Part shown: piece after piece, positions 17,552 to 31,939 of the stretch | How the letters are laid out: each line of letters opens with the position of its first letter | Position numbering within the stretch: position 1 is the first letter of the stretch | DNA from: an uncultured Verrucomicrobia subdivision 3 bacterium | GTDB taxonomy: Bacteria; Verrucomicrobiota; Verrucomicrobiia; Limisphaerales; UBA11358 | NCBI GenBank assembly: GCA_903827955.1 | Contig: CAIKKJ010000099.1 | Span: forward strand, 1 to 57,775 | Direction: 5' to 3' | Length of the DNA: 57,775 bases | The notes under the pieces: generated by a model | What the model was told of the DNA's origin: nothing | What the model saw: only the letters and a program-made list of their open reading frames with translations | Database searches by the model: none | Position numbers and translations under genes: made by a program

Positions 17552-20500
17552 TCAAAAATTCAGCCGCAGACTCGCCATAAATGTTCGGCCGTGCGGCAGG
17601 TCAGCGGTCAGATTCAGCGGGTTCAAGCGATAGTCTTCATCCGCAAGGTTCAGGATGCTGGCGCGGATTTCCGCGTGCCGGCGCGCAAACCGCCAGCCGA
17701 CCGTCACGTTGTGCTGCCAGAAATCCGGGTTCGCCACTGCCGACCCGTAGCCGTAATTACTCTGGTGATACCACGACGATTCCCACTGCGCGAACACGCC
17801 GCTCGGATGACTAAAATTCAATGCAAGGGAAACTTGATGCATCACTGCACGGTTGTGCTGCTCCAGTTGGTCGAGTCCGGCGGCAGTGTGCGGGATGTCG
17901 GGAAACTCCGTGGTCAGCTTCGCCTCGCTCAATCGGTAGCGCGTGCTCACGGAAAAATAATCACCGAGCAGTTGCGAAGCATAGACCGAAAGATTGCGCT
18001 CGCGGAAATTCAACTGCTGCCGCGTCGTGCCGGCGTTGTTCGCCTGCAAAATGGGTGCAAAAAATTTGAAATCGCCCGCGTTGCGCTCACCGTCTGACGT
18101 CAGTTGTTCCGTTTCAATCCCGAAAAAAGTCCCACTCTTCAGCGACTGGTCAAAACCGAGGCTGATGGTTTCAAATTGCGAACCCGGCACCAGGCCGGCC
18201 ACGCTTTCCGGCAGCAGGCTGCGATACGCCTGATTGAATCCACCCACCTGCGTCGGCTCCAAGCGCACGCTGTTGTCGAAGTAAAGCCCACCGAGCGACC
18301 GCGTCCACGCCGCGCGGAACAGGCCACGCTCCCACGGCTGGAAAAGTAGTCCAGCTTTTGGCGCGACCAGATCACGTTCTGATTCACCGGCGGTGATCGG
18401 CGGCAGATCCAGATTTTTCGGAAACCGGATGTGGCTGTAGTCCACACCGCCGATGACGCGCAGCTTTCCTGTCATTTGCCACGAGCCGTAGGCATAGGCA
18501 TCGCCGCGCTCTAGATCGCTGCTGATTTTTTGATCGGTCACCGTTTGCGGCAACCCGCCGTTGATGTCCGATAATTGCGAGCTGGTTTCATTATTCCCCG
18601 ACTGCCAGCGACCGCCGACGATGAGTGAAAATTTTTCCGTCTCCCAAATCTGTTGCACATCCGCCGAGTAAAGCGTGAAGCGGCTGTTCAAGTCCGATGT
18701 CAACGGCCCGTTCCCCGCCGGATAAGGATTCAGCGGCCCGTTTTGCACGCTGAGAATGTTGTCGCTGAAAAATCCCGTCTGCAAAAACAGCACGTCCTGA
18801 TTGCCGTTGTGCTGGGCGAACTCATCCTGCAAACGCGAAAACAAAAATAGCGTGTGACTGCGAGGCGACCATGCGTGATGCCAGCCCAGATAAATGTCTG
18901 GCTCCTGTTTTTCTTTCACGCGAAAATTCATTGCGGTGTCCACCGGATTGTAGTGCTGCGCCACGTCGCCCGCTTCGGAATGGAAATCACCAATCTGGAA
19001 ATACAAATCATCATCTGCCGTCACGCGCTGCTTCATTGTCAGCGCAAAGTCCCGCTGCTCACTGTCGTTGTTCGCATGCTGGCCGTTTAGGCTTTGATAA
19101 ACCGTGTCGAACGCGTAGCTAAAGCCGCCGGTCGAACCGAAAACCGTGGCGGTTTCGCTCCAGTCACCGCAGCTGCCGTAGCCGGTAAGCGAACTTACGC
19201 CAAAGGGTTTCTGGTCGAAGAATCGAAGACGTTCTGACTGCGACAAGACTTGTGAAAGATTTCCCGCGCCCGGGGGCGCCAGCAGATTAGCGACGAGCAA
19301 CTCACTTTGCCGCGCGGTTTCGAGACGGAGATCAAAGCGGTTCAAATCCTCCTGCGCTTGATAGCTGTTCGCGAGAAACAGGTGGCCGGAAAAATTCGCG
19401 TAGCTCTCGCTGACCGCGCGGGCGGCGACGTGGCGGCTCACCTCGGTCAAGCCCGCGTCGTCGTAAATCGCCGCGAGGTTCGCGCTGCGCACCGAACGGT
19501 CGCCGTCGAGCAATTCGCGCGAACGGAACGCCGCGCGGTTGTCGTTTTTGTCGGACGATTTCTCGAGATCGCGGATGGCGGCGTTGAGTTTGTTTTCCTG
19601 CGAGAGATGCAGCGCGGAGTAGAGCCATGGCGTCGGGTCGTTCGCATCAAGTTCCTTGGCGAGACGGAATTCTTTTTCCGCCGACTTCGCATCGCCGACT
19701 TCGCTCGCGGCTTTGCCAAGGTAACTGCGGAACAAACTGCGTTGCGGTTCCAGTGCCGCTGCGGCTTGGAACGAGGCGCGGGCTTCGGGAAAATTTTGTT
19801 CGTGCAACAGGCAAAGCCCGCGTCCCAACCAAGCACAGCCCAGCGCGGCGTCTAGTGCGCGGGCCTTGTCAAAATGAATCAACGCGTTGCTTGCATCACC
19901 TTGGTCTAGCAGAATAAAACCCTGCAATGCATAGGCGGAAGCCAGGCGCGGTGAAAACTGATAAGCCAGGTTCAATTCTTCCAACGCGGGGCGGCGATTG
20001 CCGAAGGCGAATTCAATTTCTGCAAGGCGGGCGTGGGCGAAACCAAAATTCGGCGCAAGTTCCACCGCATGTTTGGCGGCGGCGCGGGCGTTCTCCAAAT
20101 CGGCAGCGGCTTGAAGCGCGTAGCTGTGTGCGAGCAACGCGCTGGCGGAACGCCGATCTAAAGATCGGCGTTCCGTCTCACCGCGAACGACGGCAATGAG
20201 TTCGTGCAACGCGCTGGCTGTTGAATTCTCCGGCCGGCCGGCGAGAAGTTTTTCCGCTTTGTTCACGCGACCCACGGCGAGTTCGAGTTGAGCGTGGAGA
20301 ATTTTTGCGCTGTCACTGGAAGAACTCGACGAAGCGGGCCAGGCGGCAAGTGCGGCAAGCAAATCACCGGCGCGATAATTTTTCAGCACTTCAGCGAGCT
20401 CGGATTGTTCGGCAGAATCAAATTGTAGTTCGTCGGGATTGACGATGGCGGGATAATAGAGTGCCCACTGAATTTTGGCGGTGGCGCTGACGAGCGCGGT

Positions 20501-21046
20501 CTTTTGAGCGGGCTTGCCGGTTTCGAGGCGTAAATCTTCGCCGCGTTGCAGGCTAATCTCCTCGGTGGCGGATTTCAGTGAAACTAACCCGTCAATCAGC
20601 GCGAGGTGAACACCTTTCTGGTCGTCGGCTTCCAGTAAAAATTCCGTGCCGCGAATGGCCCCGGCGGCGAGCGGCGTATCAAACTCCACATCGGCAGGTT
20701 TTTCGCGGTTGAAAAAGTAGAGAGCTCCTTGCGAAAGGCCGAAGCGTTTTTTCTCCGCGTTGCGCGGCGGGAGAATTTCCATCGTGGTGAACTCGTCGAG
20801 ACGGATGATGCTGCGGTCGGAGAGCTGGACGGCGGCGCGGCTTTGGGCGCGGGTGCGGACTTTGTCGCCGGGCTGGAGCGCGATGCCGACGGACGCGGCC
20901 TGCCAGTTGGTGGCGGTGGCGGTGAAAAACTCCACCTTTCCGGAGGCCTCGATGAGCGTGCTAGCGGAATTCGTCTGCGCCGCTGCCGCGAATGTCGCAA
21001 GCAGCAGTGCGAGAAAAACGCATCTCAATTTTAGAGCGAGGGTCAT
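17552..21046 (-). CDS. FecR-TPR-outer-membrane beta-barrel chimera
   Basis: The 1164-residue protein has a signal peptide (about 1-23), a FecR domain (about 30-160: GKVEFFTATATNWQAASVG, QPGDKVRTRAQSRAAVQLSD), a long TPR region (about 215-570: ARAAAKHAVELAPNFGFAHA, DASNALIHFDKARALDAA), and a C-terminal part (about 600-1164) of alternating beta-strands like a TonB-dependent-receptor barrel. It ends ASILNLADEDYRLNPLNL...SLRLNF, with the terminal Phe typical of outer-membrane barrels. I see no plug domain and no TonB box. TPR-plus-barrel layout recalls the exopolysaccharide exporters PgaA and PelB, but the barrel reads more like a receptor. A sigma-54 promoter (21072-21086) and palindrome (21158-21177) precede it. 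A palindromic element (20146-20175) is inserted in frame between the TPR blocks. Confidence 0.88.
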   Translation of the reverse strand: MTLALKLRCVFLALLLATFAAAAQTNSASTLIEASGKVEFFTATATNWQAASVGIALQPGDKVRTRAQSRAAVQLSDRSIIRLDEFTTMEILPPRNAEKKRFGLSQGALYFFNREKPADVEFDTPLAAGAIRGTEFLLEADDQKGVHLALIDGLVSLKSATEEISLQRGEDLRLETGKPAQKTALVSATAKIQWALYYPAIVNPDELQFDSAEQSELAEVLKNYRAGDLLAALAAWPASSSSSSDSAKILHAQLELAVGRVNKAEKLLAGRPENSTASALHELIAVVRGETERRSLDRRSASALLAHSYALQAAADLENARAAAKHAVELAPNFGFAHARLAEIEFAFGNRRPALEELNLAYQFSPRLASAYALQGFILLDQGDASNALIHFDKARALDAALGCAWLGRGLCLLHEQNFPEARASFQAAAALEPQRSLFRSYLGKAASEVGDAKSAEKEFRLAKELDANDPTPWLYSALHLSQENKLNAAIRDLEKSSDKNDNRAAFRSRELLDGDRSVRSANLAAIYDDAGLTEVSRHVAARAVSESYANFSGHLFLANSYQAQEDLNRFDLRLETARQSELLVANLLAPPGAGNLSQVLSQSERLRFFDQKPFGVSSLTGYGSCGDWSETATVFGSTGGFSYAFDTVYQSLNGQHANNDSEQRDFALTMKQRVTADDDLYFQIGDFHSEAGDVAQHYNPVDTAMNFRVKEKQEPDIYLGWHHAWSPRSHTLFLFSRLQDEFAQHNGNQDVLFLQTGFFSDNILSVQNGPLNPYPAGNGPLTSDLNSRFTLYSADVQQIWETEKFSLIVGGRWQSGNNETSSQLSDINGGLPQTVTDQKISSDLERGDAYAYGSWQMTGKLRVIGGVDYSHIRFPKNLDLPPITAGESERDLVAPKAGLLFQPWERGLFRAAWTRSLGGLYFDNSVRLEPTQVGGFNQAYRSLLPESVAGLVPGSQFETISLGFDQSLKSGTFFGIETEQLTSDGERNAGDFKFFAPILQANNAGTTRQQLNFRERNLSVYASQLLGDYFSVSTRYRLSEAKLTTEFPDIPHTAAGLDQLEQHNRAVMHQVSLALNFSHPSGVFAQWESSWYHQSNYGYGSAVANPDFWQHNVTVGWRFARRHAEIRASILNLADEDYRLNPLNLTADLPHGRTFMASLRLNF
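20146..20175. repeat. Perfect 14-bp inverted repeat inserted in the FecR-TPR-barrel gene
   Basis: CGGAACGCCGATCT - AA - AGATCGGCGTTCCG is a perfect 14-bp inverted repeat with a 2-bp loop. It falls between TPR units of the minus-strand gene (about residues 290-300) and encodes the low-complexity sequence ERRSLDRRS without breaking the frame. I think it belongs to a dispersed palindromic repeat family, because it is too long and too exact to be a chance feature of coding sequence. Confidence 0.75.
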
Positions 21047-21071
21047 CGGTAATTTTCTTCTGATTTGTTAA

Positions 21072-21086
21072 GCAGCGCGCTTGCCA
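21072..21086 (-). promoter_or_regulatory. Sigma-54 promoter of the FecR-TPR-barrel gene
   Basis: Read on the minus strand, TTGGCAAG-CGCG-CTGCT has the -24 GG and -12 GC separated by exactly 10 bases, as RpoN promoters require (consensus TGGCACG-N4-TTGCW). The expected start of transcription is about 12 nt on, near 21060, leaving about 15 nt before the ATG at 21046. It is the weakest of three such promoters, having CTGC instead of TTGC at -12. Confidence 0.75.
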
Positions 21087-21157: not shown

Positions 21158-21177
21158 CTGTTCCGCAACCGGAACAG
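21158..21177. promoter_or_regulatory. Enhancer-type palindrome upstream of the FecR-TPR-barrel gene
   Basis: CTGTTCCG - CAAC - CGGAACAG is a perfect 8-bp inverted repeat with a 4-bp spacer. Its centre is about 95 bp upstream of the -12 element, a usual distance for the binding site of a sigma-54 activator. The same TGTTCCG-N4-CGGAACA core occurs at 23102-23119. It also lies just before the start of the region downstream of the Ig-like gene. Confidence 0.75.
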
Positions 21178-21178
21178 C

Positions 21179-22969
21179 TCACTCAATCCGCACACGGAAA
21201 AATTTCGTTCCCGGCCCGGCGATGTTCGTTGAATAGCTCTGGCCGTCGCCGAAGAACGGCGTCGCCCATTGTGTCCACGGGCCGGTGAGGTTGGTGGCCG
21301 AGAGAATGGTGTAGCGGAAATTCGCCGCAGTCGGAAAAGCGAGGTTGAAGTTGCTGCCGCTCCGGTTGACGGAGCAGTTCATCGGCGTGACGACGTGCAG
21401 CAGGTTGCTGACGGTGATGGTGCCGAGGTCGTTCGTTACCGTGAGCGTGTAAGTTCCGGTGCTAGCACTGGTGACGTTCGTGAGTTGCAAAACAGGAATC
21501 GTCACGCTGGCGATGTTCGTGCCGTTCTTTTTCCACGAATAGACGAGCGGCAACGCACCGGTGATGGATGGAGCGAGCGTGACAGTGCTGCCCGTAAAAA
21601 CCGTCTGCGTCACGACGAGGCTCGAAGCCGAAGGTGGTTGCGCCGGCTGGTTGGTGTTGAGCGCGTAGTTCAGCCAGGCCGTGCCGCGCGCGGCATTCAC
21701 GCCGTCCACGACGACGACGTATTGCCGCGTCTTCACGGCCTGAAACGAGACTCGCGCCGCGCCGTGCAGAGCCACACTGTCATTATCGCAGCCGACGGAA
21801 ATCAAATCGCCATAGCCAGTGAGCGTGCCATTGTAGGTATAAAATTCCATCACGGTATCGTAGGAACTGCCGACAGTGTCGAGCGTCATCGTGCCGTTCG
21901 TCGGCGGCTGGTATTGCAGCCAATACGAGGCACCGCCGGTCACGCCGCAGTGCGGCGGTTCAGCAGGGTCAGTGGTGGCGAAGGTGGTGTTAAAAACCTG
22001 GCTGCCATTGTAGCCGCGCACGACGCCGATATTTGGAGTCAGCGGGCCGCCGCCAAATCCGCCGGGGCGAATCGCGACTTTGGAAACAATGACGTGACCG
22101 GTGTTTGTCCCGCCGCCATCATCGCCTATCAGCGCGGTCGAGGGTGAATCCAACAATTTATCTTCCGCCAGCGTGTTGGTGGAGCCGTCGGAGTTGATTT
22201 GCAATTCCACCGGCGTGGTAAAAAAGCGCACGCGGTTATTGCCGTTGCCCACAGTTACTCGCAGTTGATAGCGACCGACGTTCGTATCTTGCAAGCTGGT
22301 GATGACGATGTTTGTGCTGGTCTGATTAGTCGCTTCGTTGCCGTTGAAAAACCACTGGAACTGCGCGCCGCCGGTGGCGGTCATGTTCACCGTGAGCGTC
22401 ACTGGGTCGCCCTGTTTGGCGGCAAGGTCGTTCGGCGTGCTGACGATGATGGGCGGTGGTGAGGCGGCGGGCAGAAAACTCCAGTTCAACACCACCGTGC
22501 CGGTCGCGCCCTGATAACCATCCACAGCGATTTCGTAACTGCGTCCGGCGATAGCGCCAATCTGAATCAAGCTGGTCGGCGGCGCGGCGGGGTCGTCGTC
22601 GTTGCGCGCCTCTTCGTGAAGCTGCGTGACTTGTGTGCCGTTGGTCGTGTAAGCCGAGAGCAATGTGTCGAAGCTGCTGCCGTGCGTATCGAACGTCGCC
22701 ACGCCGTTCGTCGGTGCGACCCAGGAAATCCACAGCGAATGACCGCCAGGTTTGCCACCATGTTTTGGCTCGCCGGTTTCGACCGTCGCGGCGGAATTGT
22801 CACCCACCAAAGTTCCGTTCGTGGTGAAGATCGTTTCGCGGTTCGTGAAGTAATCTTGAAAGTTTGCCGCCTGCGCGTCGGCCATCACCGCAAACACGCA
22901 AAAAACCAATGCCGTCGCCGCGCCACGGAGGACGCCACTGCCCAACCAGATTTTCAGGCCGCACTTCAT
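21179..22969 (-). CDS. Secreted protein with PPC-like and Ig-like domains
   Basis: ATG 22969 gives 596 residues with a signal peptide (about 1-35, ending ADAQA); an in-frame ATG at 22990 is also possible. The order is: pre-peptidase C-terminal (PPC)-like domain (LWISWVAPTNGVATFDTHGS, FDTLLSAYTTNG, about 60-165), Ig-like domain (KQGDPVTLTVNMTATGGAQF, about 175-260), a second PPC-like domain (YWLQYQPPTNGTMTLDTVGS, about 330-440), a second Ig-like domain (about 445-530), and a C-terminal motif YTILSATNLTGPWTQW ending FFRVRIE. No catalytic motif is visible, so it is a structural or binding protein of the surface or periplasm. It has a sigma-54 promoter (23026-23041) and palindrome (23102-23119), linking it to the adjacent regulator. 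Confidence 0.85.
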   Translation of the reverse strand: MKCGLKIWLGSGVLRGAATALVFCVFAVMADAQAANFQDYFTNRETIFTTNGTLVGDNSAATVETGEPKHGGKPGGHSLWISWVAPTNGVATFDTHGSSFDTLLSAYTTNGTQVTQLHEEARNDDDPAAPPTSLIQIGAIAGRSYEIAVDGYQGATGTVVLNWSFLPAASPPPIIVSTPNDLAAKQGDPVTLTVNMTATGGAQFQWFFNGNEATNQTSTNIVITSLQDTNVGRYQLRVTVGNGNNRVRFFTTPVELQINSDGSTNTLAEDKLLDSPSTALIGDDGGGTNTGHVIVSKVAIRPGGFGGGPLTPNIGVVRGYNGSQVFNTTFATTDPAEPPHCGVTGGASYWLQYQPPTNGTMTLDTVGSSYDTVMEFYTYNGTLTGYGDLISVGCDNDSVALHGAARVSFQAVKTRQYVVVVDGVNAARGTAWLNYALNTNQPAQPPSASSLVVTQTVFTGSTVTLAPSITGALPLVYSWKKNGTNIASVTIPVLQLTNVTSASTGTYTLTVTNDLGTITVSNLLHVVTPMNCSVNRSGSNFNLAFPTAANFRYTILSATNLTGPWTQWATPFFGDGQSYSTNIAGPGTKFFRVRIE

Positions 22970-23025
22970 GAATTGCGCACAGTATTGCATAACTACCGGA
23001 ACGCGTCCGGCAAATTTTATGTTTA

Positions 23026-23041
23026 GCAATCCCGTTGCCAA
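23026..23041 (-). promoter_or_regulatory. Sigma-54 promoter of the PPC/Ig-like protein gene
   Basis: On the minus strand, TTGGCAAC-GGGA-TTGCT matches the RpoN consensus with GG and GC exactly 10 bases apart. Transcription should start near 23014, giving a leader of about 45 nt to the ATG at 22969 or 24 nt to the one at 22990. The site lies in the 152-bp gap between this gene and the response regulator gene. Confidence 0.82.
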
Positions 23042-23101: not shown

Positions 23102-23119
23102 TGTTCCGGTAGCGGAACA
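23102..23119. promoter_or_regulatory. Enhancer-type palindrome upstream of the PPC/Ig-like gene
   Basis: TGTTCCG - GTAG - CGGAACA is a perfect 7-bp inverted repeat with a 4-bp spacer, just after the response regulator stop codon (23122-23124). Its centre is about 84 bp upstream of the -12 element, that is about eight helical turns. The core is the same as at 21158-21177, so both are probably bound by one dimeric factor, most simply the adjacent Fis-type regulator. Confidence 0.78.
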
Positions 23120-23121
23120 GA

Positions 23122-24528
23122 CTAATCTTTTTCCACGCGGAGTTCCGGCCACTTTTCAAGTCGGCGTAACAGCGCCTGCGGCGACATGCCGAGTTTGGTC
23201 GCCGCGCGGCGGATGCCGCCGTTCGCCTCGCGCAACGTATCGCGGATGAGCCGATATTCTTGCGCGTCGATTGGAGAAAGATTTCGTTCGCCGGGCAATG
23301 GCTCGGCGGCGGTTACTGGTGCAGCCGCAGAAACGGAAGTCGCAACCGGTGTCGGTGAAGAACCACGATTCAGCCAGTTCGCATCCAGCGTGAGCCACTT
23401 CGCGTCGTCGGCAGTTTTCAGCAGGGAACGCTCCAGCACGTTGCGCAGCTCGCGGACGTTGCCGGGAAAATCATGCGCGGAAAGTTTTGCCAGATCTTCC
23501 GGCGTGAGCAGCGGCTTGGTGCGTCCGTATTTTTGCGCAAGTTGGGCAAGCAACAATTCCGCGAGGCCAGGAATTTCTCCGCGCCGACGGCGCAGCGGCG
23601 GCAATTCGATGCTGAACACGTCAAAACGATACAGCAAATCTTCCCGGAAACGCCCCGCCTTCACTTCGTCCATCAAATTTTTATTCGTCGCCGCCACGAA
23701 GCGTCCCGTGAACGGCTGCGCCTCCGTGCTGCCGAGCGCGCGATACTCGCGAGCCTCCAGCAACCGCAGCAGCTTGGCTTGCAACGCCAGCGGCACTTCG
23801 CCGATTTCGTCGAGGAATAGCGTGCCGTTCGCCGCCGCCGCCACGAGGCCGCCGCGTTTTTTGTCCGCGCCGGTGAACGCTCCGCGTTCTGCGCCGAATA
23901 ATTCCGATTCAAACATCTCGCCCGGCAGCGCCGCGCAGTTCACCGCGATGAATGGCGCTTTGCCATCGGGAAAACTCAACTGGTGCAGCACGCGCGCCGC
24001 GAGATCTTTGCCCGCACCGGTTTCGCCCGTGAGCAACACCGTGCTGGCCGCGTGCTTCGCCGCCTGCTTGAGCTGTTGCAACACGTCGCGCATCGCCGCC
24101 GATTCGCCGAACATTTCTGTTGCCGTTGCTGGCGTCGCGCGCGTCTGCATCCGCAGCTTGGCGCGCTCCAGCGCCGCCGCGAGCGCATCCACGGAAATCG
24201 GCTTGGTGAGATATTCGAACAGCCCGTTGCGCGTGAGCGACACCGCCTCGCTCAAATCCGGCGCGCCCGTGATCATCACGATGGGCGCATCGGGGTTGCG
24301 ACGGGAAACCTGGTTGAAAAAATCGTAGCCCTTGCCGTCCGGCAGATGATTGTCCAGCAGGATGAGGTCGAAATTTTTCGCGGCGGAAATTTCTTGCGCG
24401 ACCGCCAGCGTGTGGGCCAGCGTCACTTTTCCGCCCGCCTCGCCAACGACACTCGCCGCCATCGTCGCGAACGACACGTCGTCATCCACGATGAAGCAGG
24501 AGAAATTATTTGCGGATTTGCCGTTCAC
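23122..24528 (-). CDS. Sigma-54-dependent response regulator (NtrC family)
   Basis: The 468-residue protein has a receiver domain (about 10-120, phospho-acceptor Asp in LILLDNHLPDG near residue 61, Lys in YLTKPIS), an AAA+ sigma-54 activation domain (about 140-370) with Walker A GETGAGKD, the GAFTGA loop that contacts sigma-54, and Walker B GTLFLDEIGE, and a C-terminal Fis-type helix-turn-helix (about 425-468: GIRRAATKLGMSPQALLRRL). All residues needed for ATP-driven promoter opening are present. It follows the CHASE2 histidine kinase gene by 33 nt on the same strand, so the two form a two-component pair. Three sigma-54 promoters with a common palindrome nearby are its likely targets. Confidence 0.96.
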   Translation of the reverse strand: MNGKSANNFSCFIVDDDVSFATMAASVVGEAGGKVTLAHTLAVAQEISAAKNFDLILLDNHLPDGKGYDFFNQVSRRNPDAPIVMITGAPDLSEAVSLTRNGLFEYLTKPISVDALAAALERAKLRMQTRATPATATEMFGESAAMRDVLQQLKQAAKHAASTVLLTGETGAGKDLAARVLHQLSFPDGKAPFIAVNCAALPGEMFESELFGAERGAFTGADKKRGGLVAAAANGTLFLDEIGEVPLALQAKLLRLLEAREYRALGSTEAQPFTGRFVAATNKNLMDEVKAGRFREDLLYRFDVFSIELPPLRRRRGEIPGLAELLLAQLAQKYGRTKPLLTPEDLAKLSAHDFPGNVRELRNVLERSLLKTADDAKWLTLDANWLNRGSSPTPVATSVSAAAPVTAAEPLPGERNLSPIDAQEYRLIRDTLREANGGIRRAATKLGMSPQALLRRLEKWPELRVEKD

Positions 24529-24561: not shown

Positions 24562-27258
24562 TCACTTCAAGCTGCGGCTTACGGTGTTCAGCAACTCCGC
24601 CAAGGCAAATGGCTTTTCCAATTGCGCAACGTTCGCAATGTCCGCGCCGGATTCGCCGCTCGCGAGAATCATCGGCAGGCCGGGCTTCAGCTTCCGGATT
24701 TCTGCGATGGCTTGCGGGCCGGTCAGCACAGGCATGGAGTTGTCCGTGATGAGCAGACGCACTTCGTCCGCGTGCTGCTTGAAAAGCGTGACCGCTTCCG
24801 CGCCGTTCGCCGCCGTGATCACACGGTAGCCAAACTCCGTTAGCTCCGCCGCGACGAGTTCGCACAATGCCTGTTCGTCGTCTGCGAGCAGAATTAATTC
24901 GCCATGGCCGCGCGGCAACGCATCTTCCATTTTTTCCGCAGCCGCCGCGGCGAACTCCGGCGCGCACGGGATGAATACTTCAAACGTCGTGCCGTGGCCG
25001 ACCTCGCTCTCCACGCGCAGAAATCCGCCGTGGCTTTTCAGGATGCGCACGACCGTAGCCAGCCCGATGCCTGTGCCTTTGCCTTCGCCCTTCGTCGTAA
25101 AAAACGGCTCAAAAATTTTTGCCTGCACTTCCGGCGGCATGCCTGTGCCCGTGTCGGACACGGCGAGCGAAATAAACTTGCCCGGCTGGCCGTCGGGGAT
25201 TTCCTTCGCCTCCGCTTCTGCCAGCGTGACGTTATCGGCCACGAAGGAAAGCTTGCCGCCGTCCGGCATCGCGTCGCGGGCGTTCACGCAGAGGTTTAAC
25301 AACACCTGATGTAATTGCGTGAGGTTGCCCTGCACCGGCCAAAGATCACGTGGGATGAACGTCTCCACCGCGATGCTCTTGGGAAAAGTTTCGCGCACCA
25401 TCTTCTCCAGTTCCTTCACCAGCGGACCGAGTTCGAGCCGCTCGAATTCGCCGCCACGCCCGCGCGCGAACAGCAACACCTGCCGCACCATGTCCGCGCC
25501 GCGATTCGCGCTGGTCTCGATCAGTGAAAGCAATTTGCGGTCGTCCTCGCTGACGGTCTTGCGCCGCAGCAACTGTGCGCCGAGCAGCACGGGCGAGAGC
25601 GCGTTGTTCAAGTCGTGCGCCATGCCGCCGGCGAGCGTGCCGATGGTGTTCATGCGCTGCGTGCGGAGAAATTGTTGCTCCAACAATTTCTTTTCCGTGA
25701 TATCGCTGTTGATGAGCAGCAGCCCGCTCGGCTGGCTAACGTCATCGCGGATCAGCGTCCAGCGGCTGTCCACGGTGATGACTTGTCCGGCGCTGGTTTG
25801 CAATTGAAGCTCGCCGTTCCACTCGCCTTCCTTCAAGGCGATGTCGCGCGCCTTGTCAGCATCAGCGGCGGCGGGCAAAAATATTTCGGCGGCAGACTCG
25901 GGCTTAATTTCGGAAAATTTCCAACCATAAAGTTTTTCCGCGCTCGGATTGGCATAGATGATTTTGCCGTTCAAGTCCTGCACGAGAATCGCGTCGTGCG
26001 CTTTATCGAGCAGCGCGGCCTGCTCGCGGATTTTGGCGTCGGCGATGCGTTTAGCGGCTTCCAATTTGCGGCGAGTGAAAAACCATTCCTGAAACTGCCA
26101 CAGCCACGAGCCGAAGAGTGCCGCGGGAATCTGGACGGCGCTGACGATGAGCCATGGAAACCATATTCCCCTAGCAAAACCTGCGAGCGAAAGTATTGGA
26201 ATCAAACTAGCACCAGTGATTGCGAGAATGGTCGCGGGCACGGGGCGGAACCAGAGCAGTCCGCTGCCAAAAATCAGTGCGGTCAGCAATAGGATAAAAT
26301 TTTCCATCCCGTTACCCATTCGTTGTAGCGCATCTTGTCGCAGCAAATTCAACAATTGGGTGGCGTGGACTTCGACCCCGGGAATAAAAAATTCCTTGCT
26401 GCTCCACGCGCCGCGAAAGGGGCTGCGGAATTCATCACGCTGCGCATTTGGCAAACCTTCAATGGGCCGCCCGCCGATGAAAACAATCTTGTCGCGGAAA
26501 AATCCTGAAGGCAGCGCGCCTGGATCCAAGGCTTCGTAATAACTCACCTGCGGAATCGTCAGCGCCGGACCATAGTAGCGAATCCAAAGATTGCCGTTGA
26601 TGACGGTATTTGTTGCGCCAATGAGTCTTGCGGCGGCGAGGCTCAAGCTGGGAATCTGCTCGTTGCCGAATGGCGGCAAGTGGTGACGGACCACAAAATC
26701 ATCATCAATCCAAAGCGAGTCGACTCCCCAGCCGGCCGTCGCGCGGGTAAAACTTTCCTCCGGCAGAATCAGCATTGTGGACCGAGTCCGACTTTCGGTG
26801 CTGGAAGTTTCATGGGTGTTTTTATTGTTGTGGCCAGCCGCCAGGATGACACGACCATTTTCTTGAATGGCTGTCGCGAGGGCTACGTCAGCCAAATGGC
26901 TTTCGCTTGGCGTATCGAAGAGGATGTCAAAAACCACGGCGCGTGCGCCATCAGCGGTGAGCCGCTCGACCAATTTTGCATGCAGATCTCGCGGCCACCG
27001 GTTGGCGGGATCTTGATGCTCGTGAAAAAATGAGGCGATATCGAGATAGACGATGACTACCCGCGGATCGTCGAAGGTTTTTTGGTTGAGCGCGGCGAGC
27101 GAATGAAGCGAATCGTAGCTGTCGTTGGTAAAACGATTTTTCAAGGCAATGCCAAGCAACGCCACGCCTGCCGCGAGCACAAGCGCGGCAAATACGCGGG
27201 GCTTGGTTGCCTGCGGAAAAGCCATGTGCCGTTGAGCATATTTAGGGAGCGTGCGCAT
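24562..27258 (-). CDS. CHASE2-PAS hybrid histidine kinase with C-terminal receiver
   Basis: The 898-residue protein has an N-terminal membrane anchor (about 22-40), a periplasmic CHASE2 sensor domain (about 45-305, with DPRVVIVYLDIASFF and GARAVVFDILFDTP), three membrane helices (about 315-395), a PAS domain (about 415-530), a HisKA domain with the phosphorylated His in GGMAHDLNNALSP (about residue 548), a HATPase domain (DTGTGMPP, GKGTGIGLATVV, about 640-770) and a receiver domain (about 785-898, Asp in LLITDNSMP). It should sense a periplasmic or envelope signal and pass phosphate to the adjacent NtrC-type regulator. FecR and CHASE2 proteins are often encoded together in bacteria, matching the FecR domain of the 17552-21046 product. 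An ATG at 27225 is an alternative start. Confidence 0.93.
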   Translation of the reverse strand: MRTLPKYAQRHMAFPQATKPRVFAALVLAAGVALLGIALKNRFTNDSYDSLHSLAALNQKTFDDPRVVIVYLDIASFFHEHQDPANRWPRDLHAKLVERLTADGARAVVFDILFDTPSESHLADVALATAIQENGRVILAAGHNNKNTHETSSTESRTRSTMLILPEESFTRATAGWGVDSLWIDDDFVVRHHLPPFGNEQIPSLSLAAARLIGATNTVINGNLWIRYYGPALTIPQVSYYEALDPGALPSGFFRDKIVFIGGRPIEGLPNAQRDEFRSPFRGAWSSKEFFIPGVEVHATQLLNLLRQDALQRMGNGMENFILLLTALIFGSGLLWFRPVPATILAITGASLIPILSLAGFARGIWFPWLIVSAVQIPAALFGSWLWQFQEWFFTRRKLEAAKRIADAKIREQAALLDKAHDAILVQDLNGKIIYANPSAEKLYGWKFSEIKPESAAEIFLPAAADADKARDIALKEGEWNGELQLQTSAGQVITVDSRWTLIRDDVSQPSGLLLINSDITEKKLLEQQFLRTQRMNTIGTLAGGMAHDLNNALSPVLLGAQLLRRKTVSEDDRKLLSLIETSANRGADMVRQVLLFARGRGGEFERLELGPLVKELEKMVRETFPKSIAVETFIPRDLWPVQGNLTQLHQVLLNLCVNARDAMPDGGKLSFVADNVTLAEAEAKEIPDGQPGKFISLAVSDTGTGMPPEVQAKIFEPFFTTKGEGKGTGIGLATVVRILKSHGGFLRVESEVGHGTTFEVFIPCAPEFAAAAAEKMEDALPRGHGELILLADDEQALCELVAAELTEFGYRVITAANGAEAVTLFKQHADEVRLLITDNSMPVLTGPQAIAEIRKLKPGLPMILASGESGADIANVAQLEKPFALAELLNTVSRSLK

Positions 27259-27338: not shown

Positions 27339-27728
27339 TCACAATTGAAACGGAGTCGTCGGCACGGTGATGCTGCCGCCGGAACTGCTGACGATGACGA
27401 CATAAACCGGGTCATACGACTGGTAAGGCATCACGGTTCCGCCGTAGCGACTGCCGCCACCGTTCTGCACTTCACCGATGAGCGAGCCGTCCGGGCGACA
27501 GGCGAACAGGCGCGCGGTTGGGTCGGAACTGGCGGCCTTGATCAACATTTCACCGCCGGAGTTGATGAAGCATTTGCTGACTTTGATGGAATCAACTTTC
27601 ACTCCGCCACCGCCGCCACTGCCGGAGCCGCCAGAGGCGAAGGCGGGGATGGCGACGCAACCGATGATGAGTGCGAGGAATGCCACGGCGAGAGTTTTCA
27701 GGAACGGGTTTTGGATTTTGGTTTTCAT
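27339..27728 (-). CDS. Small secreted Gly-rich protein
   Basis: ATG 27728 gives 129 residues. A signal peptide (about 1-31, with LAVAFLALIIGCVAIPAFAS) precedes a short Gly/Ser stretch (GGSGSGGGGGVKVDSI) and a mature domain of about 80 residues with two Cys (KCFINS, LFACRPDG). I do not recognise a family. The GGGGVK stretch is shared with the 29281-29793 product, and both have a signal peptide, which suggests the proteins of this group are related in function. It is the last gene before a strong terminator and probably belongs to the sigma-54 unit that begins at 29793. Two hairpins (27756-27815) separate it from the preceding gene. Confidence 0.75.
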   Translation of the reverse strand: MKTKIQNPFLKTLAVAFLALIIGCVAIPAFASGGSGSGGGGGVKVDSIKVSKCFINSGGEMLIKAASSDPTARLFACRPDGSLIGEVQNGGGSRYGGTVMPYQSYDPVYVVIVSSSGGSITVPTTPFQL

Positions 27729-27755
27729 AGTTTTTACGGGTGTGGTTTTGGTGTT

Positions 27756-27815
27756 CAGGTTCCGACGCCGGCACACGATTCACAGCGCCGGAACCTGTTT
27801 TCCCACGCGGGAAAA
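27756..27815 (-). other. Two tandem hairpins between secreted protein genes
   Basis: CAGGTTCCGACGC (27756-27768) pairs with GCGCCGGAACCTG (27785-27797), 12 of 13 bases, and TTTTCCC - ACGC - GGGAAAA (27798-27815) is a second perfect stem. On the minus strand they lie between the 321-residue protein gene and the small Gly-rich protein gene. No clean T-run follows, so partial termination, mRNA stabilisation or processing seems likelier than full termination. Confidence 0.45.
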
Positions 27816-27818
27816 ATT

Positions 27819-28784
27819 TTATTGTTGCTGCAACCGGTAATAGCGCGATGGACGATTGGTGGAATTGTCATCCGTGAAATGCGCGTCGGGACGGTTGGTG
27901 CTGATGGTGGCCACGTTCGTCCAATGGATCATATCTTCGCTGGCCTGCACGACATAGTTGGTTCCCGGCTCGACGGTGAAGTCAGCGGTGTGCCGTCCGT
28001 CGGCCTCGCGATGAACGCCTTGGCCGCGGGCGTGACGGACAGTGTGGGCGGCAGACATGAAATTGCCGATGAGGTTGCCAGAACGTCCGTTGTTGTCGGC
28101 GAAAACCTGAAGCGAAGTCATTACGCTGTCGTTTTCATCGGGACCGGCATTGTCGTCATCGGAAAGACGGTCGCCAGGGCGCAGACGTTTGGGGCGATCA
28201 TCCACGTTTGTGCCGGACATGACGACGGGGTTGTTGGTCATCAAGTCGTCGAGCGTGACGAGGCGGTTGGTGCGAACGGTGATGCGCTGCACCCAAAATG
28301 TGTTGGTGCGGTCGTTGTTGCGGACTTCGCGATGACGGCCACGACCTTCGGGATTCGCCACTGTCGGCGGCGTGGTGACAATGGTCACGATCGGCGCGGG
28401 AAACTGACGGCCAGTGCCGACGTAAGATCCGTTATTCATCCAGGTGTAAAGCACACCGTTGGTCGGGAATGCCGGGAGAATCGCGCCGAAATGCTCGATG
28501 GTGTTGGGCGGTGTGACCGTGTTCGTGTGCGCGGTGTAGTGGACGCGCGTGTGGCCGCCGATGTCGGTGACTTCCGGTGTGCCGTAGTGCGGATTGTAAT
28601 TCCAGGTGCCGTAAAGCTGCGAGGGCACCGTGTTGGAAATGATCAACTCGAACTCGTTGCACGTTTGGCCGGTGTCGTTGTTCAAATCGAAATTGCTCAA
28701 CGCACCGACGACGGAGACGGCGGATGCGGTGGCCACGGTCAATGCAGCCAGGCCAAGTGCGGCAAAATAAATTTTTGTTCTCAT
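27819..28784 (-). CDS. Secreted protein with the C-terminal W-T/YYR motif
   Basis: The 321-residue protein has a signal peptide (about 1-22, ending ATASA) and no enzyme motif I recognise. The N-terminal two thirds are beta-rich, with many Asn/Thr and several His/Arg-rich stretches (RGRHREVRNNDRTN, RPKRLRPGDRLSDDD). The last ~60 residues hold the motif YVVQASEDMIHWTNVATIST ending RYYRLQQQ, also seen in other secreted proteins of this window. The gene starts 23 nt after the stop of the 134-residue protein gene, in the same direction, so it is likely part of the same transcript. It would be a surface or periplasmic component with unknown role. Confidence 0.78.
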   Translation of the reverse strand: MRTKIYFAALGLAALTVATASAVSVVGALSNFDLNNDTGQTCNEFELIISNTVPSQLYGTWNYNPHYGTPEVTDIGGHTRVHYTAHTNTVTPPNTIEHFGAILPAFPTNGVLYTWMNNGSYVGTGRQFPAPIVTIVTTPPTVANPEGRGRHREVRNNDRTNTFWVQRITVRTNRLVTLDDLMTNNPVVMSGTNVDDRPKRLRPGDRLSDDDNAGPDENDSVMTSLQVFADNNGRSGNLIGNFMSAAHTVRHARGQGVHREADGRHTADFTVEPGTNYVVQASEDMIHWTNVATISTNRPDAHFTDDNSTNRPSRYYRLQQQ

Positions 28785-28806: not shown

Positions 28807-29211
28807 TCAGAATTTTCCGGCGAGAATGATTGCACCCGTGTCGGTAACGATGCCAACGAGCGTTCCGGTTTGGATTGCGGGAACTGTCTGGCCAGTTTTG
28901 CTTTTGAGGGATAGCTGGGCCGTGCCGAGCGTGGTCACTGCCATGGTGCCAACCACCGCATCATTTACCGTGACGGCGAGGATGGCACCGGCGAGTTTTT
29001 TGGAAACCTGTGCTTCGACTTCAAATTCCTGTTCCTTGGCGCTGAGTTTTAATTTGGCGGTGCCTTTGGCGGTGGGAAATTCCGGTGCGTGCACCAGGTT
29101 GATTTTTACTTCAATGGCCGGGTTGCCGTTTTTTGCGCGAGCGGCTGGCGTCACAAACGTCAGTGTTAGAATTGCCGCCAAAGCGAGCAGGAGAGCGGAT
29201 TTAATTTTCAT
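28807..29211 (-). CDS. Small secreted protein with C-terminal TGAIILAG motif
   Basis: The 134-residue protein has a signal peptide (about 1-26: MKIKSALLLALAAILTLTFV, ending ARA) and a single beta-rich domain (about 30-134: IEVKINLVHAPEFPTAKGTA, KLKLSAKEQEFEVEAQVSKK). It ends GIVTDTGAIILAGKF. The N-terminus (MKIKS) and the C-terminal VTDxTGxIIxAG motif are like those of the 170-residue protein encoded upstream, so the two may be distant paralogues. I do not recognise a family. It lies between genes for other secreted proteins in what looks like one operon, after a hairpin at 29233-29262. Confidence 0.78.
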   Translation of the reverse strand: MKIKSALLLALAAILTLTFVTPAARAKNGNPAIEVKINLVHAPEFPTAKGTAKLKLSAKEQEFEVEAQVSKKLAGAILAVTVNDAVVGTMAVTTLGTAQLSLKSKTGQTVPAIQTGTLVGIVTDTGAIILAGKF

Positions 29212-29232
29212 GATCTGGTAGTTTAAATTTTA

Positions 29233-29262
29233 GGTGGCGGCCGGTCATCGTCGACCGCCACC
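29233..29262 (-). other. Intercistronic hairpin (possible attenuator)
   Basis: GGTGGCGG and CCGCCACC form a perfect 8-bp stem around a 14-nt loop, in the 69-nt gap between the first and second secreted protein genes. A-T-rich but not T-only sequence follows on the minus strand. It could reduce read-through or protect the upstream mRNA end, so the first gene may be expressed more highly than the rest. Confidence 0.45.
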
Positions 29263-29280
29263 GTTTTCATCGCCTCAATT

Positions 29281-29793
29281 TCAGTTGCCAGCAAAGATGA
29301 TCGTGCCGGTCGCATCCGTCACCGTCACCCCAGCCACACCTGTGCCGAGGTAGATGAAGTAGTGCTGCGAGCTGCTGCACGCGCCGCCGGACACAATCAT
29401 CGGGGCAGTGATGTAGGGATAAACCACCCCACCGGCGGTGCCAACGGCGTTGACGTAGAGCACCGTGCCGTCCGGAACATTGAGCGAGCTGACATTCACA
29501 TTCACCACGAGGTCGAGCAACGTCGGGTAATACGGCAAAATATTGTAGTCACCCGTGCAAGAACCGCTGGCGCTGGACGAGAAAGTCAGCGTGCCGCTGG
29601 AGACTGCTGGCAGAGCCGGCGTCGGTGCCGGCGTGGGGCTTTTCACACCACCACCGCCGCTTTTCACACCGCTTTTGCTGGTGCCGGGAATTGGGTCGGT
29701 AGCGCCAGCTTTGGCCAGCACGGATTGTTCAGTGATGAAGCCGCACGCGAGGGTGACAGCGATGAGGGCGAGGAGGTTTGATTTGATTTTCAT
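29281..29793 (-). CDS. Small secreted Ser/Gly/Pro-rich protein, first gene of a sigma-54 operon
   Basis: The 170-residue protein has a signal peptide (about 1-27, MKIKSNLLALIAVTLACGF, ending VLA), a low-complexity linker (about 30-65: SGVKSGGGGVKSPTPAPTPA) and a beta-rich C-terminal domain (about 66-170) with two Cys in GSCTGDY and GACSSSQ. It ends VTDATGTIIFAGN, which resembles the end of the next protein (VTDTGAIILAGKF). No known family is recognised. Its promoter is the best sigma-54 match in the window (29875-29890), about 70 nt upstream of the expected leader start, with two candidate activator sites behind it. A structural or secreted surface role is likely. Confidence 0.8.
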   Translation of the reverse strand: MKIKSNLLALIAVTLACGFITEQSVLAKAGATDPIPGTSKSGVKSGGGGVKSPTPAPTPALPAVSSGTLTFSSSASGSCTGDYNILPYYPTLLDLVVNVNVSSLNVPDGTVLYVNAVGTAGGVVYPYITAPMIVSGGACSSSQHYFIYLGTGVAGVTVTDATGTIIFAGN

Positions 29794-29874
29794 AATTTTG
29801 ATTTGTTGTCGTTGTTTTTTTTGCGAACACAGTCCGCTTGAGTGCGGAACGATTCGTTGCTGTGACCTCCTTTA

Positions 29875-29890
29875 GCAACGGTCGTGCCAG
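29875..29890 (-). promoter_or_regulatory. Near-perfect sigma-54 promoter of the secreted-protein operon
   Basis: On the minus strand CTGGCACG-ACCG-TTGCT fits the RpoN consensus TGGCACG-N4-TTGCW at every defined position, with GG and GC 10 bases apart. Transcription should start near 29863, about 70 nt before the ATG at 29793. The leader contains a small hairpin with TCCGC/GCGGA arms (29833-29848). Confidence 0.88.
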
Positions 29891-29986: not shown

Positions 29987-30012
29987 AAACCGTTCCGCGA
30001 GCGGAACGGTTT
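29987..30012. promoter_or_regulatory. Strong enhancer-type palindrome upstream of the secreted-protein operon
   Basis: AAACCGTTCCG - CGAG - CGGAACGGTTT is a perfect 11-bp inverted repeat with a 4-bp spacer. It shares GTTCCG-N4-CGGAAC with the sites at 21158 and 23102. Its centre is about 124 bp upstream of the -12 element. The gap 29794-30151 (358 bp) contains no gene; it holds this site, the degenerate site, the sigma-54 promoter and a GC-rich hairpin. Confidence 0.72.
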
Positions 30013-30151: not shown

Positions 30152-31939
30152 TTAATGTTTCAGGCCATAACCGAATTGGAACTGTGGCGTGGCGGATTTG
30201 TCCGCGCTCGCTGGCCAGTTGCGCGGCAGTTTGCCGGTGAATTTGTGGTCGCCGAACAAAACATCCGTCAGGCCCAAACCTTCCGTGCCCGGCAGCCACG
30301 CGGCGACGAAGGAGGTGCTGTCGGCGAGCGCGGAGTTCAGGAGGAGCGGACGGCCGGAAAATAAAATGGTCACGACCGGCGCCCCGCTGGCCTTGGCTTT
30401 CGCAATCAAGGCGCAATCTTCCGCCGATAAATTTAATTCCACGCGGTCACCTTTCATTTCGGCGTAGGGATGTTCGCCCACGACCGCGATGACTGCATCG
30501 GCATTTTTCAAATCGCCCGCGTCAGGTGAAAAAATAATTTTCGTTTCCGGCGAAACGGTTTGCTTGATGGCCGCGAGCAGCGTCGTGCCGCCATGAGTCA
30601 CGTTGCCGCGACCGCCTTGCCAATCAATCGTCCAGCCGCCGCATTGCATTCCGAGATCATCCGCGCCGGCACCGACGACGGCGAGCGTCCTGATTTTTTT
30701 CGAGAGCGGCAAAATATTTTTTTGATTTTTCAGCAACACGAGCGATTTGCGCACGCACTCGCGCGCGACGGCGCGATGCTCCGGCGAACCAATGGAAGCG
30801 GTGAGTTTGGAATCGGTCGCGGTGCTTTCAAAAATGCCGAGCGCAAATTTGATCCGCAAGATGCGCGTAACCGCGTCGTCAATACGCGCCTGCGAAACTT
30901 TTCCTTCCGCGACGAGCGACTTCAAATCGCCAATGAACTCAATGTAATTATTGGTTTTGCCCGCGCCGTTCGGGATCATGATCATGTCTAGTCCGGCGTT
31001 GATGGAACGCTCGACAGAATTTTTGTAGTCGTTGGTGTTGATCTGATCAATCGCCGCCCAATCGGAGACAAGGAAGCCTTGAAAACCGAGTTCGCCTTTC
31101 AGCACGTCCGTCAAAAGATGTTTTTGGCCGTGCATTTTTTCGCCGTTCCAGCTGTTGTAGGAAACCATGATGGAGCCGACGCCCGCCTTAATCGCGGCAA
31201 TGTAAGGCGGGAGATATTTTTCGCGCAACGTCGCCTCGTTGCAAACCGTGTTGCCTTGATCAATACCGTCGGTCGTGCCGCCGTCGCCGATGAAATGTTT
31301 GGCGCACGCAAGCACGAACGTTGGCTCGGTGGAAATTTTTTTGCGTTGTAATCCAATCGTCGCGGCGACGGCGAACTGGGATACGAGTTCGGTGTCATCA
31401 CTGAAACCTTCATAGGTGCGGCCCCAGTGCGCGTCCTGCGGCACGGTGATGCACGGCGCGAAGGCCCACCGGATGCCGGTGCCGGCGACCTCTTCGGCAG
31501 TGACGCGTTCGGCGCGTCGGACGAGATCCAAATCCCGGGTCGCTCCCAAACCGATGTTGTGTGGGAAAACCGTCGCGCCATCAACGTTGTTGTGGCCGTG
31601 AACGGCATCAATGCCGTAAAGCAATGGGATTTTCAATCGTGTTGAAAGCGCCTGCTCTTGAAATTCTGTGACGAACTTGAGCCACGACTGGACGGAATTC
31701 CCGTCCGCTGGATCCGATGTGCCGCCGCTCAGGACGGAGCCGAGAAAATACTTTTGCACATCGGTCGTGTCCTTGAGCGCGCTGGAATCCACCTGCACCA
31801 TCTGGCCGATTTTTTCATCGAGCGTCATCTGCGCGAGCAAGGTGTCAACTTGTTTGTCGTGTTCGGAAAACAGCAGGGCGGCGTGGCTCATGGTGGCAGC
31901 GAGTAAAATTCCGGCGGCGATGGTGATGGTGTTTTTCAT
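30152..31939 (-). CDS. Secreted GH3 beta-glucosidase/exo-glucanase
   Basis: The 595-residue protein has a signal peptide (about 1-20, ending SHA), the GH3 N-terminal barrel (about 30-360) with the substrate-binding KHFIGDGGT and the nucleophile Asp in GFLVSDWAAI (about residue 290), and the second alpha/beta domain (about 380-595) with SLVLLKNQKNILPL, GEHPYAE and AAWLPGTEGLGLTDVLFG. It ends FQFGYGLKH without a fibronectin III domain, as in ExoP/cellodextrinase-type enzymes. It probably removes glucose from cello- or mixed-linkage glucan oligosaccharides in the periplasm. Its start overlaps the SGNH esterase gene stop by 4 nt (31936-31939), so the esterase and the glucosidase are co-expressed and may act together on acylated plant polysaccharides. 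Confidence 0.92.
   Translation of the reverse strand: MKNTITIAAGILLAATMSHAALLFSEHDKQVDTLLAQMTLDEKIGQMVQVDSSALKDTTDVQKYFLGSVLSGGTSDPADGNSVQSWLKFVTEFQEQALSTRLKIPLLYGIDAVHGHNNVDGATVFPHNIGLGATRDLDLVRRAERVTAEEVAGTGIRWAFAPCITVPQDAHWGRTYEGFSDDTELVSQFAVAATIGLQRKKISTEPTFVLACAKHFIGDGGTTDGIDQGNTVCNEATLREKYLPPYIAAIKAGVGSIMVSYNSWNGEKMHGQKHLLTDVLKGELGFQGFLVSDWAAIDQINTNDYKNSVERSINAGLDMIMIPNGAGKTNNYIEFIGDLKSLVAEGKVSQARIDDAVTRILRIKFALGIFESTATDSKLTASIGSPEHRAVARECVRKSLVLLKNQKNILPLSKKIRTLAVVGAGADDLGMQCGGWTIDWQGGRGNVTHGGTTLLAAIKQTVSPETKIIFSPDAGDLKNADAVIAVVGEHPYAEMKGDRVELNLSAEDCALIAKAKASGAPVVTILFSGRPLLLNSALADSTSFVAAWLPGTEGLGLTDVLFGDHKFTGKLPRNWPASADKSATPQFQFGYGLKH

Follow-up and report, generated by a model that had tools for sequence, protein, structure and literature searches.

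The window, by which we mean the entire 57,775-nucleotide stretch of DNA analyzed here, carries on its minus strand two adjacent small open reading frames (ORFs), found where a preliminary description had placed them. The first in the direction of transcription encodes the 170-residue protein A (29281 to 29793; MKIKSNLLALIAV...VTDATGTIIFAGN), with a signal peptide, the peptide GATDPIPGTSKSG, a Gly/Pro-rich linker, and a predicted beta-sandwich, and the second, after a gap of 69 nt, encodes protein B (28807 to 29211; 134 residues, MKIKSALLLALAA...VTDTGAIILAGKF), predicted to be a small secreted beta protein. They are followed on the same strand by the genes for a secreted 321-residue protein (27819 to 28784), a small secreted 145-residue protein (27339 to 27776; its start is uncertain and an inner ATG is probable), a CHASE2-PAS-histidine kinase-receiver protein (24562 to 27258), an NtrC-type sigma-54 response regulator with the Fis-type helix SPQALLRRLEKWPELR (23122 to 24528), a secreted Ig-domain protein (21179 to 22990; 603 residues counted from the first ATG past its promoter), and a 1,164-residue FecR-TPR-barrel protein (17552 to 21046). 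Genes encoding proteins 65% and 50% identical to the 321- and 145-residue proteins, respectively, are present in the corresponding cluster of genome G187.

Pfam supported the assignment of the kinase and of the FecR-TPR-barrel protein. In the regulator, Response_reg (E = 5.7e-19), Sigma54_activat (1.2e-59), and HTH_8 (4e-07) domains were identified, the architecture of an NtrC-type protein. The FecR domain of the FecR-TPR-barrel protein was recognized at 5.6e-13, and its barrel gave a weak match to TonB_dep_Rec_b-barrel (7.8e-05; 23.1 bits, under the cut-off of 27). Neither Pfam nor NCBIfam contained, at E values up to 10, a family for A or for the 321- or 145-residue protein, and B matched only entries under their cut-offs: Peptidase_C25_C (0.02; 15.1 versus 25 bits), GxPGS_dom (0.075), and bunya_NSm (0.091). 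In sequence searches of the PDB, the best match of the A profile was a designed cytokine agonist (0.066), which we take to be a chance hit, and B had no match. Export by a type IX secretion system (T9SS) was considered and rejected, the best that the Ig-domain protein gave with the tail model of that system being E = 0.085.

The A family has 11 strong members, in the window and in genomes G044, G041, G081, G161, G187, G181, G130, G274, G266, and G194. The window, G044, and G041 members came from 49 genomes of the same genus, and 10 members came from 293 genomes of the order, a search in which G044 is not among the matches listed. That search matched A in 48 genomes at E ≤ 0.1; 38 weak matches (E = 0.0027 or worse), which mostly cover the low-complexity N-terminal and Pro-rich part, were left out. 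In a draw of 337 genomes from the phylum, the A and B domains had three matches each, the only strong one being to their own genome and the remaining ones being partial (E = 5e-4 to 0.009), so that this draw showed no A gene beyond the order. Members of the family share one plan: a signal peptide, GATDPIPGTSKSG, a Gly/Lys/Ser stretch, a Thr/Ala-Pro linker, a domain of ~105 residues, and an [AT]GN end. The peptide GATDPIPGTSKSG (residues 30 to 42; 29668 to 29706, minus strand) lies directly past the signal peptide, as judged by eye from the cleavage site, and is predicted to be disordered (pLDDT below 50); its core, GATDPIPGTSK, is present in 9 of the 11 members and missing in G130 and G194. 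One member matches the Pfam entry New_glue at E = 0.041. The signal peptides frequently contain a Cys, preceded mostly by Leu; by eye this makes a poor lipobox, and we rejected A as a lipoprotein. Three loci, L056, L057, and L058 (genomes of families f7 and f42), contain the A domain without the upstream palindrome described below, and L058 also lacks GATDPIPGTSK; these genes could possibly be a sub-family under another regulator. The B family has three members, in the window, G044, and G092.

The preliminary description had reported a common N-terminal MKIKS and a common C-terminal motif, VTDxTGxIIxAG, in A and B. The first is indeed present in both proteins, but the second does not fit B, in which the residue between VTD and TG is missing, and a gap of one residue is needed to align the tails VTDATGTIIFAGN and VTDTGAIILAGKF. 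BLASTP of A against B gave as its two best pieces residues 1 to 21 (E = 0.002) and the C-terminal 14 residues (E = 0.15). The similarity of the first 25 residues was equaled by none of 5,000 shuffles of B, while 42 of 5,000 were as good over the last 20 residues and 80 of 5,000 over the last 30. MKIKS is not family-wide: other A members start with MKLKS, MKLNS, MKQQI, MKVSY, MSYVL, and others, and the other B proteins start with MKLKS and MTREI. Among the fetched loci, MKxKS opens 7 of the 50 MK-starting ORFs with a hydrophobic region, and 6 of these 7 are A or B members. Over the first 66 nt, the A and B genes have 46 identical positions in G044 and 33 in the window, so one leader may be a copy of the other. 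The tail is kept within each family, most strongly in A, where 10 of the 11 members end in [AT]GN. A tail pattern built from both families, which missed A of G181, A of G130, and B of G092, occurred in 11 of 1,966 ORFs of at least 80 codons (~0.8 Mb of fetched, partly overlapping loci), and all 11 were A or B members. It was absent from the Ig-domain and FecR-barrel genes and all other ORFs of these loci, and by eye no such tail was seen in the other secreted proteins that have a promoter of this kind. The tail thus looks like a feature of the A and B families rather than a general sorting tag.

The AlphaFold model of A, built on a two-row alignment (mean pLDDT, 67.7), contains eight strands between residues 65 and 169 (block pLDDT, 76 to 88), giving a predicted beta-sandwich domain of residues 65 to 170 (29284 to 29601, minus strand). 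The tail of A (29284 to 29322, minus strand) corresponds in this model to the end of strand 7 and the last strand (residues 165 to 169). The model of B is poor (mean pLDDT, 52.7) and also ends in a strand, residues 126 to 130, within the tail (28810 to 28848, minus strand). With VIA-align, the domain of A was closest to superoxide dismutase SOD1 (4bd4_A; Z = 8.8, root mean square deviation [rmsd] 2.6, 91 residues, model range 64 to 170); domains of the gamma-COPI appendage and of GH2 beta-mannosidase scored within one Z unit of this. The low-confidence model of B was closest to 4bd4_F (Z = 9.7, rmsd 2.3, 92 residues, range 31 to 134), and its best 50 rows were Cu,Zn superoxide dismutase (SOD) entries or complexes of SOD with its copper chaperone. 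Both Z scores are near the level at which the tool warns of a merely common arrangement, and Foldseek returned nothing for the A model at E ≤ 0.001. The predicted sandwich aligns with Cu,Zn SOD over the whole A and B domains, but neither protein has a SOD sequence match (Pfam to E = 10 under the HMMER filters; PDB), and they lack the set of metal ligands, since each holds a single His. When the family alignments were compared by hhalign, only the signal peptides aligned; a full path forced on the isolated domains ran in order over 87 columns (E = 0.15), so homology of the two domains is not significant by profile comparison. The models nevertheless predict the same kind of sandwich for both domains, with the tails at the same place, and the shared tail is most likely the last beta-strand of a folded domain.

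A sigma-54 -24/-12 element, TGGCACGACCGTTGCT (29874 to 29889, minus strand), lies 96 nt before the ATG of A. It has no mismatches, and nowhere else in the window is the pattern found with one mismatch or none, although 1.24 such places are expected at that laxity. The motif TGGCACN5TTGCTA occurs exactly once in the assembly and, with one mismatch, 10 times versus 29 times for the reversed control; that is, it is rarer than the control. Similar elements precede the Ig-domain gene (TGGCAACGGGATTGCT; 23025 to 23040, minus strand) and the FecR-TPR-barrel gene (TGGCAAGCGCGCTGCT; 21071 to 21086, minus strand). In the family, 7 of the 11 A genes have a GG-N10-GC element (at least 9 of 12 positions) 91 to 119 nt before the ATG; the corresponding figure is 3.8% among 522 genes from the fetched loci, a set that includes the A and cassette genes themselves. 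The A genes without a full element are those of G274 and G266 (-24 half only), G194 (score of 8), and G041 (none). When the regions upstream of A were aligned, the sigma-54 element was the only block that clearly lined up. B of G092 has a sigma-54 element and no operator of the kind described next. Elsewhere in the genome of the window, at L065 (C83:8632-8648), the element TGGCACTTGCCCTGCTA stands 95 nt before a 346-residue gene that by eye is glutamine-synthetase-like, glutamine synthetase being a classical sigma-54 target.

The palindrome GTTCCG-N4-CGGAAC, a putative operator, is found upstream of A (29992 to 30007), of the Ig-domain gene (23103 to 23118), and of the FecR-TPR-barrel gene (21160 to 21175), at 102, 62, and 73 bp, respectively, from their sigma-54 elements. 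The exact 16-bp palindrome has three copies in the 3.86-Mb assembly, all inside the window. The A, Ig-domain, and FecR-TPR-barrel genes share both the sigma-54 element and the palindrome, which supports the claim of common control of A and the barrel protein. The word is not enriched as such: with one mismatch, it occurs 26 times in its own genome versus 23 times for the reversed control, and 12 other genomes contain 28 exact copies versus 25. Because of this, the case for an operator rests on position. Ten of the 28 copies are in kinase loci or before A and 18 are elsewhere; of the latter, 4 (one in G016 and three in G181) lie within 300 bp of a sigma-54-like element, and the 14 without one are probably due to chance. 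Elsewhere in these genomes, the exact word and a sigma-54 element precede genes for exported products in G016 (412 residues) and, less certainly, in G181 (226 and 121 residues).

The kinase loci, 606 kb in all, contain the exact word 18 times, and neither of two control words is found there as an exact copy. Each of the 18 exact operators is accompanied at 62 to 181 bp by a sigma-54 element (9 or more of 12 positions), as are 10 of 13 one-mismatch operators within 204 bp, compared with 11.9% of random positions within 204 bp on either side; these counts refer to 15 related loci (the 13 SPQ loci described below, the first taken as the whole window, plus G044 and G231). As to the A genes, those of G044 and G187 have an exact operator, and those of G081, G161, and G181, which are not beside the kinase gene, have a one-mismatch operator with the same spacer and a sigma-54 element; mononucleotide-shuffled upstream regions hold a copy with at most one mismatch, at any spacer from 0 to 9, in 0.9% of cases. 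The operator with spacer 4 is missing in 5 of the 11 A genes: G041, G130 (HQ type, see below), G274, G266, and G194. A one-mismatch copy with spacer 2 downstream of the G130 promoter was left out of the count. In this upstream scan, some of the starts taken for cassette promoters are approximate.

Other genes also stand behind such sites. In L145, L147, L148, and L172, an exported family of ~450 to 490 residues (YTA.E.EY.TE.G..Y.LQG, by eye), unlike A and B, is encoded behind an operator and a sigma-54 element between the Ig-domain and FecR-barrel genes. At L138:11096-11191, 63 bp separate a one-mismatch operator from a 12/12 sigma-54 element that is oriented against the kinase gene; of the ORFs downstream of this element, the longest encodes 404 residues, by eye glycosyltransferase-like and not secreted.

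The operator follows the recognition helix of the regulator. Where the regulator ends in SPQ[AS]LLRRLEKWPELR, the exact operator is present in 12 of 13 loci, G218 being the exception, whereas with HQ in place of PQ (L152, L155, L157, L166, L174, and L175; G181 has both locus types) exact GTTCCG-N4-CGGAAC is present in none of six (Fisher P = 2.6e-4; the genomes are related and the counts are not independent). When every six-base inverted repeat was considered, at spacers of 0 to 8, GTTCCG-N4 ranked first in the SPQ loci (12 of 13), and the runner-up (8 of 13) was the same site shifted one base outward. No exact operator was found in 21 kinase loci for which the stretch shows no regulator of this kind; the comparison of helices excludes these loci as well as G044, where the contig ends within the regulator gene. 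Exact GGTCCG-N4-CGGACC occurs in two of the six HQ loci, which is only suggestive of a changed half-site specificity of the HQ regulators.

Homologues of the kinase, regulator, Ig-domain, and FecR-barrel genes occur together in 13 of 40 fetched stretches (L136, L137, L138, L142, L145, L147, L148, L151, L152, L157, L171, L174, and L175), several of the others being cut by contig ends. A lies beside the kinase gene in 4 of 11 genomes (the window, G044, G187, and G266, the last in convergent order) and away from the kinase or FecR-TPR-barrel locus in another 4 (G041, G081, G161, and G181), as seen over flanks of at least 5 kb (in G041, one flank reaches only 3.1 kb). In G081, G161, and G181, the kinase gene is 32 kb distant or on a different contig, the A tail of G181 being altered to FTTN, and G041 has neither a CHASE2 kinase of this kind nor a promoter box. 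In G130, G274, and G194, a different contig carries the kinase gene and no FecR-TPR-barrel gene is beside A, in a view limited by a contig end within 1 kb. All three B genes are within ~4 kb of the kinase gene. Of the 12 genomes that contain A or B, 11 also encode a kinase orthologue, truncated at a contig end in G092; the twelfth, G041, has none with CHASE2. The CHASE2 region was matched at E ≤ 1e-70 in 40 of the 293 order genomes, as counted from the table, a few just missing the cut. The CHASE2 kinase was present at that level in 9 of 10 A genomes versus 31 of 283 others (Fisher P = 6e-8) and at E ≤ 1e-30 in 9 of 10 versus 108 of 283 (P = 0.0014), figures that are both inflated by relatedness, the stricter cut having been set after the list was seen.

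The observations to be accounted for are thus the anatomy of the locus, the three operator copies, their spacing, their co-variation with the recognition helix, and the co-occurrence of A with the kinase. We propose, with a probability of about 0.7, that the tail of A and B is the closing strand of their domains, that the set headed by A is transcribed by sigma-54 RNA polymerase, and that the CHASE2 kinase and the NtrC-type regulator switch the three promoters through the palindrome. NtrC-type proteins generally act by signal reception, phosphotransfer, binding to a palindrome, and looping to sigma-54 polymerase. In the circuit proposed here, the CHASE2 kinase would sense an envelope signal and phosphorylate the neighboring regulator, which would bind GTTCCG-N4-CGGAAC, loop to the sigma-54 polymerase, and turn on the A, Ig-domain, and FecR-TPR-barrel promoters. 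A, B, and the 321- and 145-residue proteins would be made from the A promoter, presumably on a single transcript. A and B would be small exported proteins with one beta-sandwich domain each, their common start being an ordinary signal peptide that both genes have kept alike, and the exported proteins might, more tentatively, be components or modifiers of the cell surface or matrix. That A is a direct target of the two-component system appears most likely from the sequences, since the operator follows the regulator helix and one-mismatch copies precede three A genes that do not neighbor the kinase gene.

The part of this proposal that concerns the tail has two competitors. In the preliminary description, the shared tail, with the start, was suggested as a possible recognition element for export or assembly machinery such as the barrel protein. 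The conservation of the tail in A, its similarity in B, and the co-control of A with the barrel gene would be in keeping with this, but the tail holds the last strand of the A domain model, the pattern does not occur in the other ORFs of the fetched loci, Ig-domain and FecR-barrel genes included, and similarly tailed A proteins are found away from the kinase and barrel locus in 4 of 11 genomes, a contig end hiding one side in 3 more. We therefore do not adopt a sorting tag as the main reading and regard recognition of the tail as improbable. The expectation that the tail would be confined to this gene context was borne out only in part: within the fetched loci it is restricted to A and B, but A itself also occurs without a FecR-TPR-barrel neighborhood. 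It could also be that A and B are unrelated, merely share an operon, and owe the similar start and tail to chance or composition. This has in its favor the lack of a significant profile match beyond the signal peptide and a tail similarity of only P ~0.01; on the other hand, one and the same SOD-like sandwich is matched by both models along the entire domain, the tails coming at the same end, and the forced profile path is in order from end to end. Such independence of A and B is doubtful, although it has to be taken seriously.

The palindrome, for its part, could be the terminator of the preceding gene rather than an operator. Before A, the arms extend to 11 pairs (a 26-bp palindrome, 29987 to 30012) with a T run behind, and the other two copies in the window start 4 nt past the stop codon of the preceding gene. 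However, only 1 of the 18 exact sites has at least five T residues in the 8 nt behind it, the sequence itself recurs beyond what pairing demands, and every exact site is upstream of a sigma-54 element. We consider termination as the sole role highly improbable, even if the operator before A may also end a glycoside-hydrolase-like gene (by eye; 30152 to 31939). Control of A through GTTCCG-N4-CGGAAC remains our preferred reading. It might extend to a distinct envelope-remodeling regulon of Verrucomicrobiota subdivision 3, in which a CHASE2 kinase, a sigma-54 regulator, and an operator of their own would govern a FecR-TPR-barrel protein of the outer membrane and a changing set of small exported beta-sandwich and Ig-domain proteins that this barrel would display or secrete, and in which the operator would change with the helix (GTTCCG with SPQ and perhaps GGTCCG with HQ) as a readable specificity code; in this full form the idea is speculative and rather unlikely.

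In its original wording, the finding on the tail is a modest one. Traced beyond the two genes, it points to a compact sigma-54 regulon for which an operator can be defined. What was an anonymous gene cluster in an uncultured group becomes a testable circuit of sensor, regulator, operator, promoter, and exported products, and the exact DNA word together with the sigma-54 element can flag targets in relatives. With their different helix and, in part, a different box, the paralogous loci make it possible to test directly how DNA is read by NtrC-type regulators. Our search of the open-access literature found no paper on this circuit.

Two described systems resemble the locus. In the PEP-CTERM-associated Prs system, as described by Haft et al. 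(2006, PMC1569441), a histidine kinase (PrsK), an NtrC-type regulator (PrsR), and a TPR protein (PrsT) accompany exported target proteins encoded behind an upstream motif, a spacer (mean of 62.8 nt; range, 32 to 92), and a sigma-54 element; the box and the regulator share a phylogenetic profile, and the box was seen there only in Proteobacteria. The window has the same layout of box, spacer, and sigma-54 element together with a kinase, a regulator, and a TPR protein. However, its box differs in sequence from Prs motif 1, which ends in TTTACA, its kinase has a CHASE2 domain, and its TPR protein adds FecR and barrel domains. In addition, the regulator scored 263.6 bits against the PrsR model (TIGR02915), the cut-off of which is 502.6, and A and B end without the Pro-Glu-Pro, transmembrane helix, and basic cluster of the PEP-CTERM that Prs targets carry. 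Assignment of the window locus to the PEP-CTERM/Prs system consequently fails. The BiofilmReg operon of Burkholderia contaminans, as presented by Voronina et al. (2016, PMC5192318), combines a CHASE2-PAS kinase, a FecR-domain protein, and a response regulator in one locus, and the window likewise has a CHASE2-PAS kinase and a FecR-domain protein. The BiofilmReg regulator is mostly of the CreB winged-helix type, whereas that of the window is of the sigma-54 type, and the BiofilmReg FecR protein carries LysM, for which the FecR-TPR-barrel protein had no Pfam match; sigma-54 is nowhere mentioned for BiofilmReg, and it includes no A or B. An insertion in the BiofilmReg regulator abolished biofilm formation, the authors stating that transcription of all four genes had stopped (PMC5192318), and by analogy only, a surface or matrix role could be envisaged for the A, B, Ig-domain, and barrel proteins. 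The combination of a FecR-domain protein and a CHASE2 kinase, linked to biofilm in Burkholderia, thus recurs here beside a sigma-54 regulator in another phylum.
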